Shown here one piece after another: positions 9,938 to 15,251 of a stretch of DNA of 33,820 nt (position 1 is its first letter; each line of letters opens with the position of its first letter). The position numbers and the translations under genes were made by a program. The notes beneath the pieces were generated by a model. The model made no database searches. It was not told the DNA's origin and saw only the letters and a list, made by a program, of their open reading frames with translations. Origin of the DNA: Natrialba taiwanensis DSM 12281. Its GTDB lineage: Archaea; Halobacteriota; Halobacteria; Halobacteriales; Natrialbaceae. Where the stretch lies: contig NZ_AOIL01000028.1 of assembly GCF_000337595.1 (NCBI RefSeq), forward strand, positions 50,639-84,458, given 5' to 3'.

Positions 9938-9967
9938 TGGACTCGCCGGGATTTGAACCCGGGGCCT
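9938..9967 (-). repeat. Left attachment site core (displaced tRNA-Ala 3' end)
   Basis: These 30 bases are identical to 15180-15209. On the minus strand they read from the end of the variable region through the T arm (TTCAAAT loop) and the 3' acceptor strand CGAGTCC plus A. Identity stops at 9967/9968, which sets the inner crossover limit. Confidence 0.88.
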
Positions 9968-10042
9968 GCGCTCACGCTCGCTACGCTCCCTCCGCGCGGG
10001 GAGTGTGCCAACCAGAGTGCATCTATCTGGGTGTACGACTCC
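9938..10042 (-). pseudogene. Degenerate tRNA-Ala-like sequence beside the integrase
   Basis: Beyond the 30-base core, the minus strand continues to resemble tRNA-Ala. GGAGTCGTA (10042 inward) pairs at six of seven positions with the CGAGTCC acceptor strand. TAGATGCACTC matches the tRNA's TAGATCACTC, and TTGGCA matches the anticodon loop. About 33 extra bases containing repeated CGCTC units stand where the short variable region should be, and the anticodon stem no longer pairs. It looks like a decayed or rearranged tRNA carried at the element end, overlapping the presumed integrase promoter. Chance resemblance of the outer half cannot be excluded. Confidence 0.4.
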
Positions 10043-10055
10043 GTCAACACCAACC

Positions 10056-11063
10056 ATGAGCCTCGAACCATACGCACCACAGGAAGCCGTCACGGACTTC
10101 CTCGAAGACCAGAAAGAAGGACAAGCAAAGAACACCGTACAGAACTACAAGTACGCTCTCCGACCGTTCGTGGACTTCTGCCACGAAAACCAAATAGAGA
10201 ATCTCAATGACCTCACCGGACGGCGACTCAAGGAGTTCAAGACGTGGCGGGGCAAGCAGGTGAGTCTCACCACGCTCCGAAACCAGATGTGGACGCTCAA
10301 GAAGTTCATGCGCTTCTGCCAGGCTATCGAAGCCGTACCTCACGGGCTTCCGATGAAGGTGGAAAGCCTCGTGCCTCAGAAAGACGGTAACGACTCGCGG
10401 GATGAGTTCATCGAGGCGGAGATAGCTGACGTGATTCTCGACTACCTCGAAAAGTACGAGTACGGTTCACTCTGACACGTCACCTTCCTGCTACTGTGGC
10501 GAACAGCCGCACGTCAGGGGAGTATCCACGCTCTCGATGTGGACGACCTCGTGGAAAACCCACCGATGCTGAAGATACGGCATCGTCCAGATACCGGGAC
10601 TCCGCTGAAGAACAAATCCCACGGTGAGCGTAATGTTCCGCTCTCGAAAGAAGACGTGGAAGTGGTACAGGACTACCTCGAAATGAATCATCCCGGCGGA
10701 ACGGACAAACACGGACGCGAACCCCTGTTGATGGGCCGGTCGGTCCGTGCGCAAAAGACCACGATTCAGCGGAACGTCTACACGCTCACACGCCCCTGTC
10801 ACTACGGACAAGAGTGTCCCCACGACCGCAACCCCGATGAATGTGAAGCCACGACCTACAACACTGCCAGTAAGTGTCCATCGAGCGTGAGTCCCCACTC
10901 GATACGGAAGGGCCGGATTATGTACCTCCTCGATAACGACGTATCCATTGAGGACGTCTCCGACCTGGTCAACAGCGGCTATGACACAATCAAGCAGTAC
11001 TATGACAAGCGCTCGAAGACGGAGAAATCCGAGAAGATACGTCAGACGATGCCAGACTGTTAG
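10056..11063 (+). pseudogene. Tyrosine recombinase/integrase with an in-frame TGA
   Basis: Read through, the frame gives 335 codons of a phage-type integrase. The first ~105 residues are a SAM-like core-binding domain (NTVQNYKYALRPFVDFC). The catalytic half has the first arginine in WRTAARQG (R153), a lysine hairpin near LKNKSHGERNVPL, the HxxR motif HSIR (281-284) and the nucleophile in IKQYYDKRS (Y315/Y316). Four cysteines at about 248, 254, 263 and 274 could bind zinc. Codon 140 is TGA (10473-10475), just before the catalytic domain, and the same frame resumes at once (HVTFLLLWRTAARQG). One C-to-T change from CGA (Arg) explains it. All catalytic residues remain, so the loss is recent, or it is a sequencing error. 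It sits next to the left attachment site, as expected for an integrase. Confidence 0.88.
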
Positions 11064-11081
11064 CCTGTTTTTTAAAACGGG
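11064..11081 (+). terminator. Inverted repeat with T-run after the integrase
   Basis: CCTGTTTTTTAAAACGGG begins directly after the integrase stop. Seven of eight stem positions pair, and the six T residues fit an archaeal T-rich termination signal. A second hairpin with CTCCC/GGGAG arms lies at 11095-11116. Confidence 0.5.
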
Positions 11082-11232
11082 TTTCGGTGCCTGACTCCCG
11101 GGGTTTGACCTGGGAGATTGTACTGCAATTTTCGGAGGAATCGACCGCTGTCTGTGGGTTTTCGGTAGTTATATCCAACTGCATCCCGTTATGTACAGTA
11201 GAGGCTTTTCCCGCTATCCTTGACGAATCAGC

Positions 11233-11238
11233 GGGAGG
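11233..11238 (+). promoter_or_regulatory. Shine-Dalgarno sequence of the helicase-like gene
   Basis: GGGAGG ends 10 bases before the ATG at 11249. Such a clear ribosome binding site is uncommon in this window and decides this start over the longer open frame from 11087. A TATA-like GTTATAT near 11168-11175 would give a leader of about 50 bases. Confidence 0.6.
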
Positions 11239-11248
11239 AATCATTCTC

Positions 11249-13099
11249 ATGTCCACAGATACATCTACAGCAGCAGGTCTATCGCAAAATCTCACTCTCG
11301 AACAGATCCGATTTCGTCTTGGCGACGTGATATGGAAGGCATTCGAACACCCACAAACCTCACTCATCGAGGCGCTACCGGCTTCGGGCAAGAGTTACGG
11401 TGTCCTCAGATGGGCAGCTGAAACAGGAAACCAGATCTCTGTCTTCGCTCCACGGCACGAACTCATGGACGAGTACGAGGACTGGTGTGCGGAAGACGAC
11501 CTCGACCTTTCGGTTGCGCGGCTTGCTTCCTTCCACCGCGACTGTGAGAGCGTTTCACTCGACGAGAAGGGAAACCCGACAGATGAACTGACGGAGAAGA
11601 TACTCAGGATATACCGACAGGGAATCAAAGGCGAAACAATCCATCAGAATGCCAGCAGGCTCCTCGGGGAACAACCGCCCTGCCTGGAGCATGGGGAATG
11701 TTCGTTCATCGAGGGGATTAATATCGACCCCGAGCCGTACGATGTCCTTCTCGGACACTATCTCCACGCCTACCAGACTGACTGGACGGAGGAACGTTAT
11801 GTGGCTATCGATGAGTTCCCTGGAGACGCTTTCCTACAAGAGTACACGGGGAAGGTACCACCAGCAGTAACCGCATACGTTGAGGAAGAGGACTTGCTTC
11901 CCTTCCGTGACTACGAGGAGCTGTTTGACCGCCAGTCAGAGTTCCGGGAAGAAGTCGAGCTGTGGAAGCAAAAGGTTTGGTCGCACTACGATGCCAATCA
12001 CGTACTCCAGGCCAAGAACTCGTCTGCACACGCTCTAGGACCGCTAATGACGCTCGCCAATCTGGAGAAAGAGCGGCTGGACAACCGTTGGCGACACGCT
12101 GACCTGGGGAACGGGAAAGTAGCGGCCCGGAATACCGAACACGAATGGTCATTCCTCCTTCCGCCGAACCTTGGGGAAGCAGAGAGTGTCGTGGCTCTCG
12201 ATGGAACACCAGTACTCGAACTGTGGGAACTCGTGATGGGGACAGAGATTGAACGGTTTCCGCTCCTCGATGATAGTGACAGGCAGACATATCTTGAGGA
12301 TGTTCTCGGGCTGGAAATCGTGCAGACTACTGAGAACTGGAACGCCTATCAGGGTGGAGATGGGGTTTCTCCGACGGTCGATATTCCCGTTGTGGAAAAA
12401 TTGAACGATCTCCACGACTCTACCCCTGGAGTAATCACCTCGAAGAAGGGGCTAAAACAGTACAAAGGTCGCGGACTGAACTCCTTGGCATCGAGGACGG
12501 AAAACTACGGGAACCTCAAGGGCAGCAACAGTTTCGGGACTATACGACTCGGCATCGTACTGGGGAACCCCCATCCTGGAGACGACGTCGTAAAGAAGTG
12601 GGGCGCACTCGCCGGTTACTCCATTGAGCGACAGGAAGGGACCTCTGGGGAAGATACCGACTACGGATACTTCGGGAACCGTGTCATGGAGGCGCTGATT
12701 CGGAACGAAGTCCTTCAGGCAGTGATGCGGTTCGGACGGGAGGAGGTGGATGGCGAGAAGGGTGCGACTGTGTACGTCCACACGTCAGCTCTACCGGAAT
12801 GGATAGAGCCAGAGAAGCGAATCGTCTCCGTTGACTCGTGGATGACTCAAGAAAACGGCATGAAGCAGGTGATTGAGGCTATACGTGAACTCAACGAGCG
12901 TGACATTCGCGAATGGAAGACTGGGGACGTAGCTGACAGAATCTCCATCTATGCGCGGTATACCCGAGAGCATCTCAAGAACCTCGTCGAACAAGGCTAT
13001 CTCGAAAGTTGGCAGGGTGGTCGTGGGAATGCTTTCCACTTCTCGAACGTATGTATCGAGGAGGCCCCAGAGTACGGCCACGTTGAGTTCGCCGAGTAG
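11249..13099 (+). CDS. Superfamily-2 helicase-like ATPase with four-cysteine insert and C-terminal winged helix
   Basis: The 616-residue protein has motifs in helicase order: Walker A-like EALPASGKS (41-49), SVFAPRHE (motif Ia position), Walker B AIDEFP with D188/E189, a motif III-like ALDGTPV, GSNSFGTIRLGIVLGNP at the motif V position, and QAVMRFGRE at the motif VI position. Between the Walker motifs are C80, C99, C145 and C151 and then YDVLLGHYLHAY. This resembles XPD/DinG helicases, where four cysteines hold an iron-sulphur cluster before a DVVxxNH stretch. The last ~70 residues look like a winged helix (RDIREWKTGDVADRI, then HLKNLVEQGYLE). Motif VI keeps only one arginine of the usual pair. 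It may drive replication or maintenance of the element; a defence role is also possible. Assignment is by motif order only. Confidence 0.65.
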   Translation: MSTDTSTAAGLSQNLTLEQIRFRLGDVIWKAFEHPQTSLIEALPASGKSYGVLRWAAETGNQISVFAPRHELMDEYEDWCAEDDLDLSVARLASFHRDCESVSLDEKGNPTDELTEKILRIYRQGIKGETIHQNASRLLGEQPPCLEHGECSFIEGINIDPEPYDVLLGHYLHAYQTDWTEERYVAIDEFPGDAFLQEYTGKVPPAVTAYVEEEDLLPFRDYEELFDRQSEFREEVELWKQKVWSHYDANHVLQAKNSSAHALGPLMTLANLEKERLDNRWRHADLGNGKVAARNTEHEWSFLLPPNLGEAESVVALDGTPVLELWELVMGTEIERFPLLDDSDRQTYLEDVLGLEIVQTTENWNAYQGGDGVSPTVDIPVVEKLNDLHDSTPGVITSKKGLKQYKGRGLNSLASRTENYGNLKGSNSFGTIRLGIVLGNPHPGDDVVKKWGALAGYSIERQEGTSGEDTDYGYFGNRVMEALIRNEVLQAVMRFGREEVDGEKGATVYVHTSALPEWIEPEKRIVSVDSWMTQENGMKQVIEAIRELNERDIREWKTGDVADRISIYARYTREHLKNLVEQGYLESWQGGRGNAFHFSNVCIEEAPEYGHVEFAE

Positions 13100-13771
13100 T
13101 TTCGGAAGGGAGGCTATAGTGTGATAAATTGAGGGTTCCGAAACTTGTACCAATGCATTGAGGGGGAATAGGACTGAAGTTGGGGGAATCGGGAAAGCTG
13201 CTTATTTCAATCGAGTATAACCATGCATCGAGGAACGACTTATTTCGGAGAGTGGCTCCGAACTGATAGGCCAATTCATCCTGTATTCTCAAAAATAAAA
13301 CAAGAAGAATCCTTAACCCCCTCAATGCTCCGAAACACTCAGGGGATTGATTCGCTGTCAGACTCTCCATACACTCTGTTTCAATATTCGCAGATCGTGT
13401 GAAATAACGTATCTCAGGGGAGTATTCATCCGTCTATGCATGGAAATTGCCGAGTTAGGTGATACCGCTATACCATACCGCTGACTCGATATTTCGGACG
13501 AGGAGTGAAAGTGGGAGTTCGTTAGTCCGAGTATAGAGGATTAGCTGAAAATGAATATAACTCTAATTCAGTTCATAAACGGTGGGAGAAGACGGAAAAC
13601 GGCGATAAAACCCACATGTTGGAGGGATATAACCCTCTTCATTGCTCAACTCACTACAATTTTAGTATAGGTCTGAAGGTACTATATCGGACTCTAAGGC
13701 ACTCAAGCTTCATACTCTCTGTCTGTTGATGGGATAACGTTTTTATATTTGGGGGGTGTAAAAATGATTGA
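13100..13771. other. AT-rich non-coding region with recurring short motifs
   Basis: No gene is seen in 670 bases. TTTCGGA or its complement TCCGAAA/C recurs at about 13100, 13137, 13243, 13257, 13329 and 13492. ATGCAT-centred sites occur at 13151-13166 (CAATGCATTGAGGGGG), 13221-13235 (CCATGCATCGAGGAA) and 13435-13443. GCATTGAGGGG at about 13155 is answered by its complement at 13317-13328. Other inverted pairs are GAGGG/CCCTC at 13622-13637 and AGTCCGA..TATAG at 13524-13536 with 13682-13693. The density suggests a replication origin or a multi-site operator of the element. I cannot match it to the haloarchaeal origin-recognition box with confidence. Confidence 0.5.
13742..13749 (+). promoter_or_regulatory. 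TATA box of the winged-helix gene
   Basis: TTTATATT, followed by a G-run, lies 23-30 bases before the ATG at 13772. This is the spacing of a leaderless archaeal transcript and fixes that start. Confidence 0.6.
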
Positions 13772-14776
13772 ATGGGGAAAGATCGTCTATATGATGTTCC
13801 CGGGGTGACGAAGAAGGTACTGCGGCTGGTGATTAAAGGTAAGAACACCCAAGAGGAGCTCGCAGATGGCCTTGAATGTGCTGAGAGAACAGTCTACAAT
13901 AAGATCCATGATCCGAAGATTCTCGGCTTCCTTGAGAAGGAAGACGGCAGGTATGTCATAAGCGACAAACCCCAGCTTATGAAGCTATTCCAACTCGATG
14001 ACCGGGGAGTTTTAAAAGAGAAGTTTGAAAATCTACCGGGGGTGCAAGAAGTCAATGATGAGTTAGTCGGTGGGAGTCTTTCTTTTGTTCGGGTCGGACG
14101 GATCATCAGTTACTACACCGAATCTGAGGCAATAGACGAGGACGCATTCGTTACATATGGTCGTGTATATTCAAAATGGTTTGACTATCTGGGGATGGGT
14201 TATGAGCACAATCAAACACTTTACCGTCAAAAGCCCACAAATTACGAGCAAGGTAGCATCGGTAGAAATTCCGGCGAAGGATTTCCTCAAGTGCGACCAG
14301 ACAAGGTCTTTGAAGCTCTCGAAATCATAGGGCAGGGAGCCCGCTCACCATCGGAAATAGCAGAGGTCTATGACTACTCGGAGAATCATGTCAATAAGCT
14401 ACTGAGCACTCTCTATTCTCTTAATTTGGCTTATAGAAACTCAGCAGTAAAATTGACTGAGCTCGGAGAAAGGGTCAAAGACGCACCGGAGGAAGAACGA
14501 AAAAAGTTGATCCGTGACTCCTTATTAGATCTCACTCTGGTCAAAAAATACTGCGAATTAGCTCCTGAAAGTCCGTTTAAGAATCAGGAACTAATGGAGC
14601 AAGTCGGTAGAAGCCTTGGTCGAGACTGGAGCGATACTACCCGGTCGACTAATGCTAAAAGAATCTACCAATGGCTATTGTACTCCGAACTGTTTAGGGA
14701 AGTGAAAAGAGGGACATTAGCCCCTACAGCTACGGCGAACCGAAAGGGTGTAGCATCTTTGGGGGATTATGAGTAA
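13772..14776 (+). CDS. Putative double winged-helix DNA-binding protein of the element
   Basis: The 334-residue product is not recognised. Residues ~15-65 look like a helix-turn-helix with wing (KNTQEELADGLECAERTVYNKI, then GFLEKEDGRYVI). Residues ~180-235 look like a second (GARSPSEIAEVYDYSENHVNKLL, then YRNSAVKLTELGERV). Each is followed by a similar short helix pattern: TYGRVYSKWFDYLGM at ~128-142 and TRSTNAKRIYQWLLYSELF at ~290-308, so the protein may be an internal duplication. It lacks the strong acidity of host proteins, and its gene is AT-rich with non-host codons, so it came from elsewhere. Lying between two non-coding stretches with repeated sites, it could be a replication initiator, partition protein or repressor. 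No nuclease or polymerase motif is visible. Confidence 0.75.
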   Translation: MGKDRLYDVPGVTKKVLRLVIKGKNTQEELADGLECAERTVYNKIHDPKILGFLEKEDGRYVISDKPQLMKLFQLDDRGVLKEKFENLPGVQEVNDELVGGSLSFVRVGRIISYYTESEAIDEDAFVTYGRVYSKWFDYLGMGYEHNQTLYRQKPTNYEQGSIGRNSGEGFPQVRPDKVFEALEIIGQGARSPSEIAEVYDYSENHVNKLLSTLYSLNLAYRNSAVKLTELGERVKDAPEEERKKLIRDSLLDLTLVKKYCELAPESPFKNQELMEQVGRSLGRDWSDTTRSTNAKRIYQWLLYSELFREVKRGTLAPTATANRKGVASLGDYE

Positions 14777-15179
14777 CTCTGAATCGGGCGTTTGGAGTCT
14801 GATTCTCTCCTCCTTGATGAGCACTTCCCCGGAAATCCGTCCGCAAAATCAGAAAATTCGCGCGCGGAGCTACATACCGATCTCGCGCACGCACCATGCA
14901 ATGTTCCAACCGGGGTAGGAATTCATTGAACCGGTCAGTACTCTCCTCCTCAATGCATTGTTACTCCCCCTTTCGGAATCGCGTCTCTACTAACCAATAC
15001 GTTGCCTTCCGAAACTCGATTGTAGAAAACCCAAGTACGTCGAAGGGATAGAGAGGTAACGGTGGGAGGCCACAAGGGACGATTTTGGCGGGTGAAAGCG
15101 GCAAGGCAGACGTTCAACGGTGTTGTGGGTTTATAAAGAGGCCGCGCCTTCTGTCGATTGTTGACGGAGAGAACTTGGA
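14777..15179. other. Non-coding right end of the element
   Basis: About 400 bases with no gene. CCTCAATGCATTG at 14948-14960 is the inverted counterpart of CAATGCATTGAGG at 13151-13163. TTTCGGA at 14971-14977 and TTCCGAAAC at 15007-15015 repeat the motif of the region before the winged-helix gene. A TATA-like TTTATAAAG lies at 15130-15138. Confidence 0.45.
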
Positions 15180-15209
15180 TGGACTCGCCGGGATTTGAAC
15201 CCGGGGCCT
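15180..15209 (-). repeat. Right attachment site core (inside tRNA-Ala)
   Basis: This is the second copy of the 30-base direct repeat. It supplies the T arm and 3' acceptor strand of the intact tRNA-Ala, so the tRNA keeps its function after integration. Confidence 0.88.
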
Positions 15210-15251
15210 CTCCCATGCCAAGGGAGTGATCTACCCCTGATCTACGAGCCC
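15180..15251 (-). tRNA. tRNA-Ala (GGC anticodon)
   Basis: The minus strand folds into a complete 72-base cloverleaf. The acceptor GGGCTCG pairs with CGAGTCC (one G-U), the D arm is GATC/GATC, the anticodon stem is CTCCC/GGGAG with loop TTGGCAT (anticodon GGC, alanine), and the T arm is CCGGG/CCCGG with loop TTCAAAT. The discriminator base is A and CCA is not encoded. A TATA-like TTTATCT on the minus strand (15284-15291) lies about 35 bases before the 5' end. Its 3' part is the integration target of the adjacent element. Confidence 0.97.

Follow-up and report, generated by a model that had tools for sequence, protein, structure and literature searches.

The window examined here, which is the whole stretch of DNA that was analysed, is a 33,820 nt segment of the 4.6 Mb genome of Natrialba taiwanensis DSM 12281 (contig NZ_AOIL01000028.1:50,639-84,458). 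It includes an insert of 5,242 bp between identical 30 nt direct repeats, the attachment (att) sites attL and attR, and the right-hand repeat forms the 3′-end of a tRNA-Ala(GGC) gene that is complete and was the sole match in an Rfam scan (Table 1). The G+C content is approximately 0.64–0.68 in the flanks, 0.53–0.55 over the integrase and helicase genes and approximately 0.45 over the cargo. The exact repeats at the tRNA-Ala 3′-end and the AT-rich, foreign character of the insert, both reported in an initial annotation made from the sequence alone, are therefore borne out. The insert contains three substantial genes, all on the plus strand, for an integrase, a helicase-like protein and a winged-helix protein.

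Table 1. Features of the Natrialba element and its integration site (positions in the window)
Feature	Position	Strand	Basis
attL, exact 30 nt duplicate of tRNA-Ala 3′-end	9938..9967	+	repeat comparison; left flank colinear with two relatives to 9950
Tyrosine recombinase (integrase) gene, broken by in-frame TGA at 10473-10475	10056..11063	+	domain matches; intact 335-codon relatives, 97% identity, in L068 and L113
XPD/DinG-like SF2 helicase, backbone, 616 aa, C-terminal winged helix	11249..13099	+	ten-member alignment, fold search, genome distribution
Dyad A, TTTCGGAA-N28-TTCCGAAA, directly after helicase stop	13100..13143	+	pattern search, shuffles, genome search
Inverted-repeat arm beside dyad A, ATGCATTGAGG motif	13147..13167	+	partner 14944-14964, 90% complementary
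Cargo gene, 334 aa tandem winged-helix protein, PF09821-type C-terminal region	13772..14776	+	Pfam match, structure model, fold search; relatives 62% (L088), 51% (L089)
Remnant (~12 codons) of second cargo gene, for protein with four transmembrane segments; overlaps winged-helix stop	14769..14804	+	L113 comparison, rest deleted (549 nt)
Conserved right border beside tRNA	14853..15179	.	common to L068 (77.5%), L113 (92%) and L142 (80%) despite different cargo
Second arm of cargo-flanking inverted repeat, CCTCAATGCAT motif	14944..14964	-	repeat and motif search
Dyad B, second TTTCGGAA-N28-TTCCGAAA, beyond cargo	14971..15014	-	pattern search, shuffles, genome search
attR, 30 nt repeat inside tRNA gene	15180..15209	+	repeat comparison, relatives' flanks, L113 comparison
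tRNA-Ala(GGC), intact, integration target	15180..15251	-	tRNA detection; Rfam

The closest relatives, G350 and G186, are 95–98% identical to the window over the tRNA-side flank. In both, colinearity with the window extends to position 9950 on the left and resumes at position 15180 on the right, with unrelated inserts of 21–24 kb in between. As the flanks of G350 and G186 end at the repeats, the boundaries of the Natrialba element are independently confirmed. As one repeat lies at the 3′-end of a tRNA gene that remains intact and relatives have different inserts between the same flanks, the earlier proposal of an integrative element at tRNA-Ala is fully supported. As G350 and G186 carry other inserts there, the tRNA-Ala site is a hotspot for the integration of unrelated elements. 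Comparison of this locus among relatives, which the initial annotation had recommended, thus found genomes that lack the element and retain its flanks, but a strictly empty attB was not found in the genus, the more distant congeners having no synteny with the left flank.

The G350 insert (L109/L110, G350:C14) includes a gene for a packaging ATPase that is 91–92% identical to that of the icosahedral haloviruses HJIV1/NVIV1. The G186 insert (L111/L112, G186:C33) has the same gene order and is an HJIV1/NVIV1-like provirus with an integrase beside the tRNA. These proviruses resemble the Natrialba element in their tRNA-Ala attachment site and in the tyrosine integrase next to it, but they are several times longer and include a packaging ATPase and other virus-like genes, none of which are among the three genes of the Natrialba insert. 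The shared site, together with the very small size of the Natrialba element and its lack of a primase, would fit a satellite that relies on a helper, viral or plasmid, to be replicated or transferred. However, the element includes no packaging, capsid or helper-exploiting gene, scans of IMG/VR with both protein families returned no relatives of the helicase or of the winged-helix protein, no helicase relatives were found in the INPHARED phage records, and homologous proteins are found on plasmids. On these grounds a viral origin was rejected, the satellite of a virus offered in the initial annotation finds no support, and dependence on a helper of either kind is very unlikely.

Elements bounded by the same 30 nt repeats were found in other genomes. 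The L068 element, in a genome of another family, is 7,256 bp, and is 90% identical to the Natrialba element over the 3,270 bp that span the integrase and helicase genes and 77.5% identical over the last 400 bp, with a wholly different cargo between. The L113 element, in Haloarcula amylovorans, shares the integrase (97%), the helicase (88%), the C-terminal half of the winged-helix protein and the right border, and includes an intact gene for a protein with four transmembrane segments (4-TM). L073, a 12.3 kb tRNA-Ala element in a genome of the same family as Natrialba, has an integrase that is 86% identical, a helicase that is 49–51% identical and a type I restriction-modification (R-M) system as cargo, while L142 shares the right border, at 80%, and otherwise has other content. 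In total, 12 relatives are bounded by tRNA-derived direct repeats, which are 4.6–12.3 kb apart and are associated with Ala, Lys, Gly, Val, Leu, Thr and Arg tRNAs. An integrase homologue was detectable by BLAST in nine of them.

The similarity of the integrases tracks the tRNA target and not the helicase, reaching 86–97% at tRNA-Ala. The L069 element, at tRNA-Lys, has a helicase that is 75% identical to that of the Natrialba element and an integrase that is 41% identical, and modules therefore clearly recombine among elements. In L141, an integrase end (86%) and a helicase end with its dyad repeat (87%) surround a helicase that is only 24% identical. Between the native helicase gene and the cargo of L068 (L068:12206-12418) lies the 3′-end of a second helicase gene, foreign and with a perfect dyad of its own, which we interpret as the visible scar of a cargo exchange.

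An integrase gene adjacent to the repeat had been annotated correctly, but its interruption by an in-frame TGA had gone unnoticed. A SAM-like N-terminal domain precedes the stop and the catalytic C-terminal domain follows it, with the arginine-motif region starting at residue 149 and the HxxR and tyrosine motifs at residues 281 and 313, respectively. As the first start codon past the TGA falls too late for a restart ahead of residue 149, there is no integrase fragment with a full active site. The gene is nevertheless recognisable as that of a cognate tyrosine recombinase beside its att site, closest to the integrases of other tRNA-Ala elements, and the 97% identical integrases of L068 and L113 are intact at the stop position. 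The ratio of non-synonymous to synonymous substitution rates (dN/dS) is 0.03–0.04 for the integrase (against L068 and L113) and 0.14 for the helicase (against L068). Given the low integrase ratio, we take the stop to be recent, and it may alternatively stem from a sequencing error. The Natrialba copy is probably immobile on its own, and its excision would need an integrase supplied in trans; other integrases of the same type in the host genome are only 35–41% identical. Relative to L113, 549 nt are also absent at 14803/14804. With the integrase stop and the deletion of a second cargo gene, the Natrialba insert is a decayed copy.

No named family apart from the C-terminal winged helix was matched when sequence profiles were run on the helicase-like protein. 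An AlphaFold model (mean pLDDT 70, pTM 0.70; low confidence at residues 200–279) was most similar in a fold search to XPD (3crv, E value 1.9e-13), followed by Xpd4 and DinG/CasDinG. Ten members of the family retain Walker A (ALPxxGKS), DEFP and QAxxRFGR motifs, and in their alignment Cys80, Cys99 and Cys151 are invariant and Cys145 is present in nine, all four lying between motifs I and II. XPD has its iron–sulphur cluster between motifs I and II, and the placement of the cysteines suggests that the element helicase may have one too. Fold and motifs identify the protein as an XPD/DinG-like SF2 helicase, sharing with its structural counterparts (PDB 3crv, 2vl7 and CasDinG 7xf0) the predicted fold, motifs I, II and VI and the cysteine-containing insert. 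It differs from them in its low identity (approximately 10–12%), its additional C-terminal winged helix and the low-confidence region, and its activity is a prediction.

Relatives of the helicase were found in 123 of 391 haloarchaeal genomes and 54 of 86 genera. Stand-alone forms are found in elements at tRNA genes for Ala, Lys, Gly, Val, Leu and Thr, and some plasmid forms are fused to a DnaG-type primase. The same helicase region, at 28–36% identity, makes up the C-terminal part of 1,062–1,764 aa proteins encoded by small circular plasmids (NZ_CP095486, 8.9 kb; NZ_CP100453, 10.8 kb; CP002990, 23.7 kb; NZ_CP034690, 14.0 kb), and a DnaG-type primase N-terminal domain (DNAG_N) was detected in two of the four plasmid proteins tested. 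Three of these plasmids include a site-specific integrase gene, as the element does. As the region is shared with plasmid proteins, two of which have a primase domain, the element helicase most likely functions in replication, here with no primase partner. A minimal replicon, one of the possibilities raised in the initial annotation, is accordingly the best fit for the ancestry of the element. The fusions of the helicase to long N-terminal parts at L012-L015, on circular plasmids of 8.9–23.7 kb, represent an archaeal family of DnaG-type primase–helicase replication proteins.

The non-coding DNA on either side of the winged-helix gene had been described as rich in repeats, and this proved correct. 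It includes two copies of a 44 bp dyad with 8 bp arms (consensus TTTCSGAA-N28-TTCSGAAA), which is expected 0.01 times per shuffled element. A GCATYGAGG-type motif lies near each dyad, and the pair around the Natrialba cargo forms a 21 bp inverted repeat. In the near clade (L068-L073 and L113) the spacer is 28 nt in every dyad copy, where 26–31 nt was allowed, and in most close members the first dyad begins 0–3 nt past the helicase stop. When the exact dyad was used to search the 391 genomes, 14 places were returned, compared with none for a reversed control pattern. Ten are inside elements of the family (the Natrialba window, L068, L069, L070, L072, L073 and L141), one follows an L070-type integrase (L158), which makes 11 in or next to elements of the family, one is beside a tRNA-Val gene (L157), and two are in homologous coding genes of an unrelated type (L159 and L160; G273 and G295) and were treated as coincidental. 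In the L070 dyad, both arms are altered yet still match one another. The DNA folding z-scores are −3.5 for dyad A and −1.75 for dyad B. In the Natrialba element, L069 and L073, two dyads enclose the cargo, and the other side of the circle would hold the integrase and helicase genes and the att sites.

No recognisable dyad accompanies the distant helicases (L080-L083) or the fused plasmid proteins, and the idea that all members of the helicase family have one was rejected. Nor are the repeats iterons of the winged-helix gene, as the dyads follow the helicase. An RNA hairpin proven through covariation is likewise unsupported beyond a hint.

The broken integrase and the deleted partner gene could also indicate a dead, gene-depleted former plasmid, in which the dyads would do no more than mark where the backbone genes end, as silencing sites or as terminators of transcription in both directions. 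The dyad immediately past the helicase stop in most close members is what would be expected of such a 3′ element. However, intact relatives are under selection (dN/dS 0.03–0.14) and the compact plan recurs in many genomes. In addition, the second dyad is beyond the cargo and does not always follow a gene, and the exact 28 nt spacing around a variable spacer sequence suggests protein binding. We therefore consider a dead remnant unlikely.

The cargo gene of the Natrialba element encodes a protein made up of two winged-helix units, for which the best fold matches were tandem winged-helix proteins, with low overall TM-scores. A double winged-helix protein had been annotated, but it is not altogether unrecognised, as residues 200–309 match Pfam AAA_assoc_C (PF09821; E value 2.5e-9). 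Relatives are rare (10 of 391 genomes). The initial annotation had also counted the helicase and the winged-helix protein as the only cargo; both are present, but the helicase belongs to the backbone and the remnant of a second cargo gene was overlooked. In L113, the winged-helix gene, which has lost its N-terminal half and kept the C-terminal half, is followed by a gene for a 186 aa protein with four predicted membrane segments, the stop and start codons overlapping. A homologue of this 4-TM protein (E value 7e-9, four predicted segments) follows the winged-helix gene of 51% identity in L089. The most economical guess is that the original cargo was a two-gene unit of a DNA-binding sensor or regulator and a membrane effector.

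Genes for more distant relatives of the winged-helix protein share operons with those for small winged-helix proteins and a HerA-like DUF87 ATPase. These form a conserved haloarchaeal cluster (L016, L017 and L090-L094; e.g. L093:6278-11655) of several small winged-helix or coiled-coil proteins and one or two larger relatives of the Natrialba cargo protein that also have winged helices, usually with the HerA-like DUF87 ATPase gene convergent, and it is found on both plasmids and chromosomes. The cluster is a candidate for a role in defence or maintenance.

Type IV CRISPR systems employ DinG-type helicases, the fold of the element helicase matches CasDinG, and the family carries defence genes, which could point to an undescribed anti-virus system of helicase and winged-helix protein. 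The DinG-like helicase would then be the effector and the integrase a mere carrier. The distribution of the two genes argues otherwise. The expected recurrence of the pair in other Halobacteria was not observed: two close helicase relatives are accompanied by other or truncated cargo, the winged-helix relatives L089-L094 lack the helicase and are mostly in other operons, and the cargo, of which the winged-helix gene is one of many, varies while the helicase is constant. The pair was rejected as a conserved unit. PADLOC detected only weak winged-helix similarities in the Natrialba cargo and matched no known defence system. A defensive island of this kind is thus very unlikely, and the mobile defence unit of the initial annotation is supported for relatives with known defence genes in the cargo slot but finds no match in the Natrialba cargo itself.

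Identifiable defence genes occupy the cargo slot in several relatives. In addition to the type I R-M system of L073, which has counterparts in L074 and L076 (outer ends unmapped), these are an AspBHI/Mrr-type methyl-directed nuclease in L070, a type IIG R-M enzyme in L081 and likewise in L123 (ends unmapped), and an ApeA HEPN protein in L083.

We conclude that the Natrialba insert, a decayed copy, probably, if by no means certainly, belongs to a family of small plasmid-like integrative elements of haloarchaea in which one slot is open to different, often defensive, cargo. The family is widespread and little described, with a constant integrase and helicase core and variable cargo. Judging from the anatomy and from known families, the adjacent tyrosine recombinase would join the tRNA 3′-end and the element's own copy of it in circularisation and integration. 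The backbone consists of the integrase, the stand-alone helicase related to plasmid replication proteins and a pair of conserved dyads. These and the nearby GCATYGAGG motifs are the probable sites at which the helicase acts in replicating or maintaining the circle with host primase and polymerases. In the circle, the two dyads would part a backbone arc from a cargo arc. Hybrids, and similar borders around different cargo, support an exchange of cargo between elements, which would take place via recombination in the conserved borders. The cargo is often an anti-virus system in relatives, and in Natrialba it appears to be the rest of a two-gene unit, a tandem winged-helix DNA-binding protein that may be a sensor or regulator and had a 4-TM partner, now deleted.

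Several points weigh against this conclusion. The helicase is related to plasmid primase–helicases and the dyads are origin-like, but there is no primase, polymerase or Orc1/Cdc6 gene within the element, and autonomous replication is therefore uncertain. As the genes for the fused plasmid proteins are not followed by a dyad, the dyad is not an origin shared throughout the helicase family. The covariation of the arms is weak, with one pair changed on both sides and 27 of 500 shuffles equally good; excision to a circle is deduced from anatomy and known families; and only 4 of the 13 att-bounded elements have identifiable defence cargo.

A bolder version, which we regard as speculative and on balance doubtful, is that the elements form a modular platform in which the paired dyads are dedicated to cargo exchange or replication, that the cargo arc, often a defence system, is replaced blockwise at the dyads by an element-encoded mechanism, and that the winged-helix and 4-TM pair is a new defence unit. 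If the dyads are indeed cargo-exchange sites, the elements would be a small archaeal counterpart of bacterial cassette-carrying defence elements.

Integrated archaeal plasmids such as the pT26-2 family and the thaumarchaeal integrated mobile genetic elements (iMGEs) likewise have tRNA att repeats, an adjacent integrase and variable genes (PMC6972569, PMC6563490, PMC8371274). The Natrialba element resembles them in its direct repeats with a tRNA copy, adjacent tyrosine recombinase and variable gene content, but it is haloarchaeal, its integrase is classical rather than gene-splitting, and its backbone is reduced to the integrase, the XPD/DinG-like helicase and the paired 44 bp dyads. A 19.7 kb virus-like region inserted in a haloarchaeal tRNA-Ala gene has been described previously (PMC3119063). 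In open-licence papers, we found no description of an integrase and XPD/DinG-like helicase backbone with paired dyads.

Small integrated elements in haloarchaea are mostly annotated as hypothetical genes beside a tRNA. One backbone, consisting of the integrase, the helicase and dyads with an exact 28 bp spacer, can be traced across many genera despite changing cargo, and offers a signature with which to search both for these elements and for defence genes as yet unknown in the cargo slot. The family is also a concrete case of defence genes moving on 5–12 kb units, and raises the question of what maintains an element that resembles a plasmid and encodes a helicase, yet lacks a primase, a polymerase and Orc1/Cdc6.

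Two further observations concern the dyad and the tRNA-Ala site. At L157:9580, a perfect dyad is found approximately 200 nt from a tRNA-Val end, with no detectable backbone genes (integrase or helicase), and is perhaps the last trace of a lost element. Just past the left end of the L113 element (L113:4858-6126) are another integrase gene, whose product is 44% identical, and tRNA-Ala-like partial repeats, which suggests tandem insertions at tRNA-Ala.

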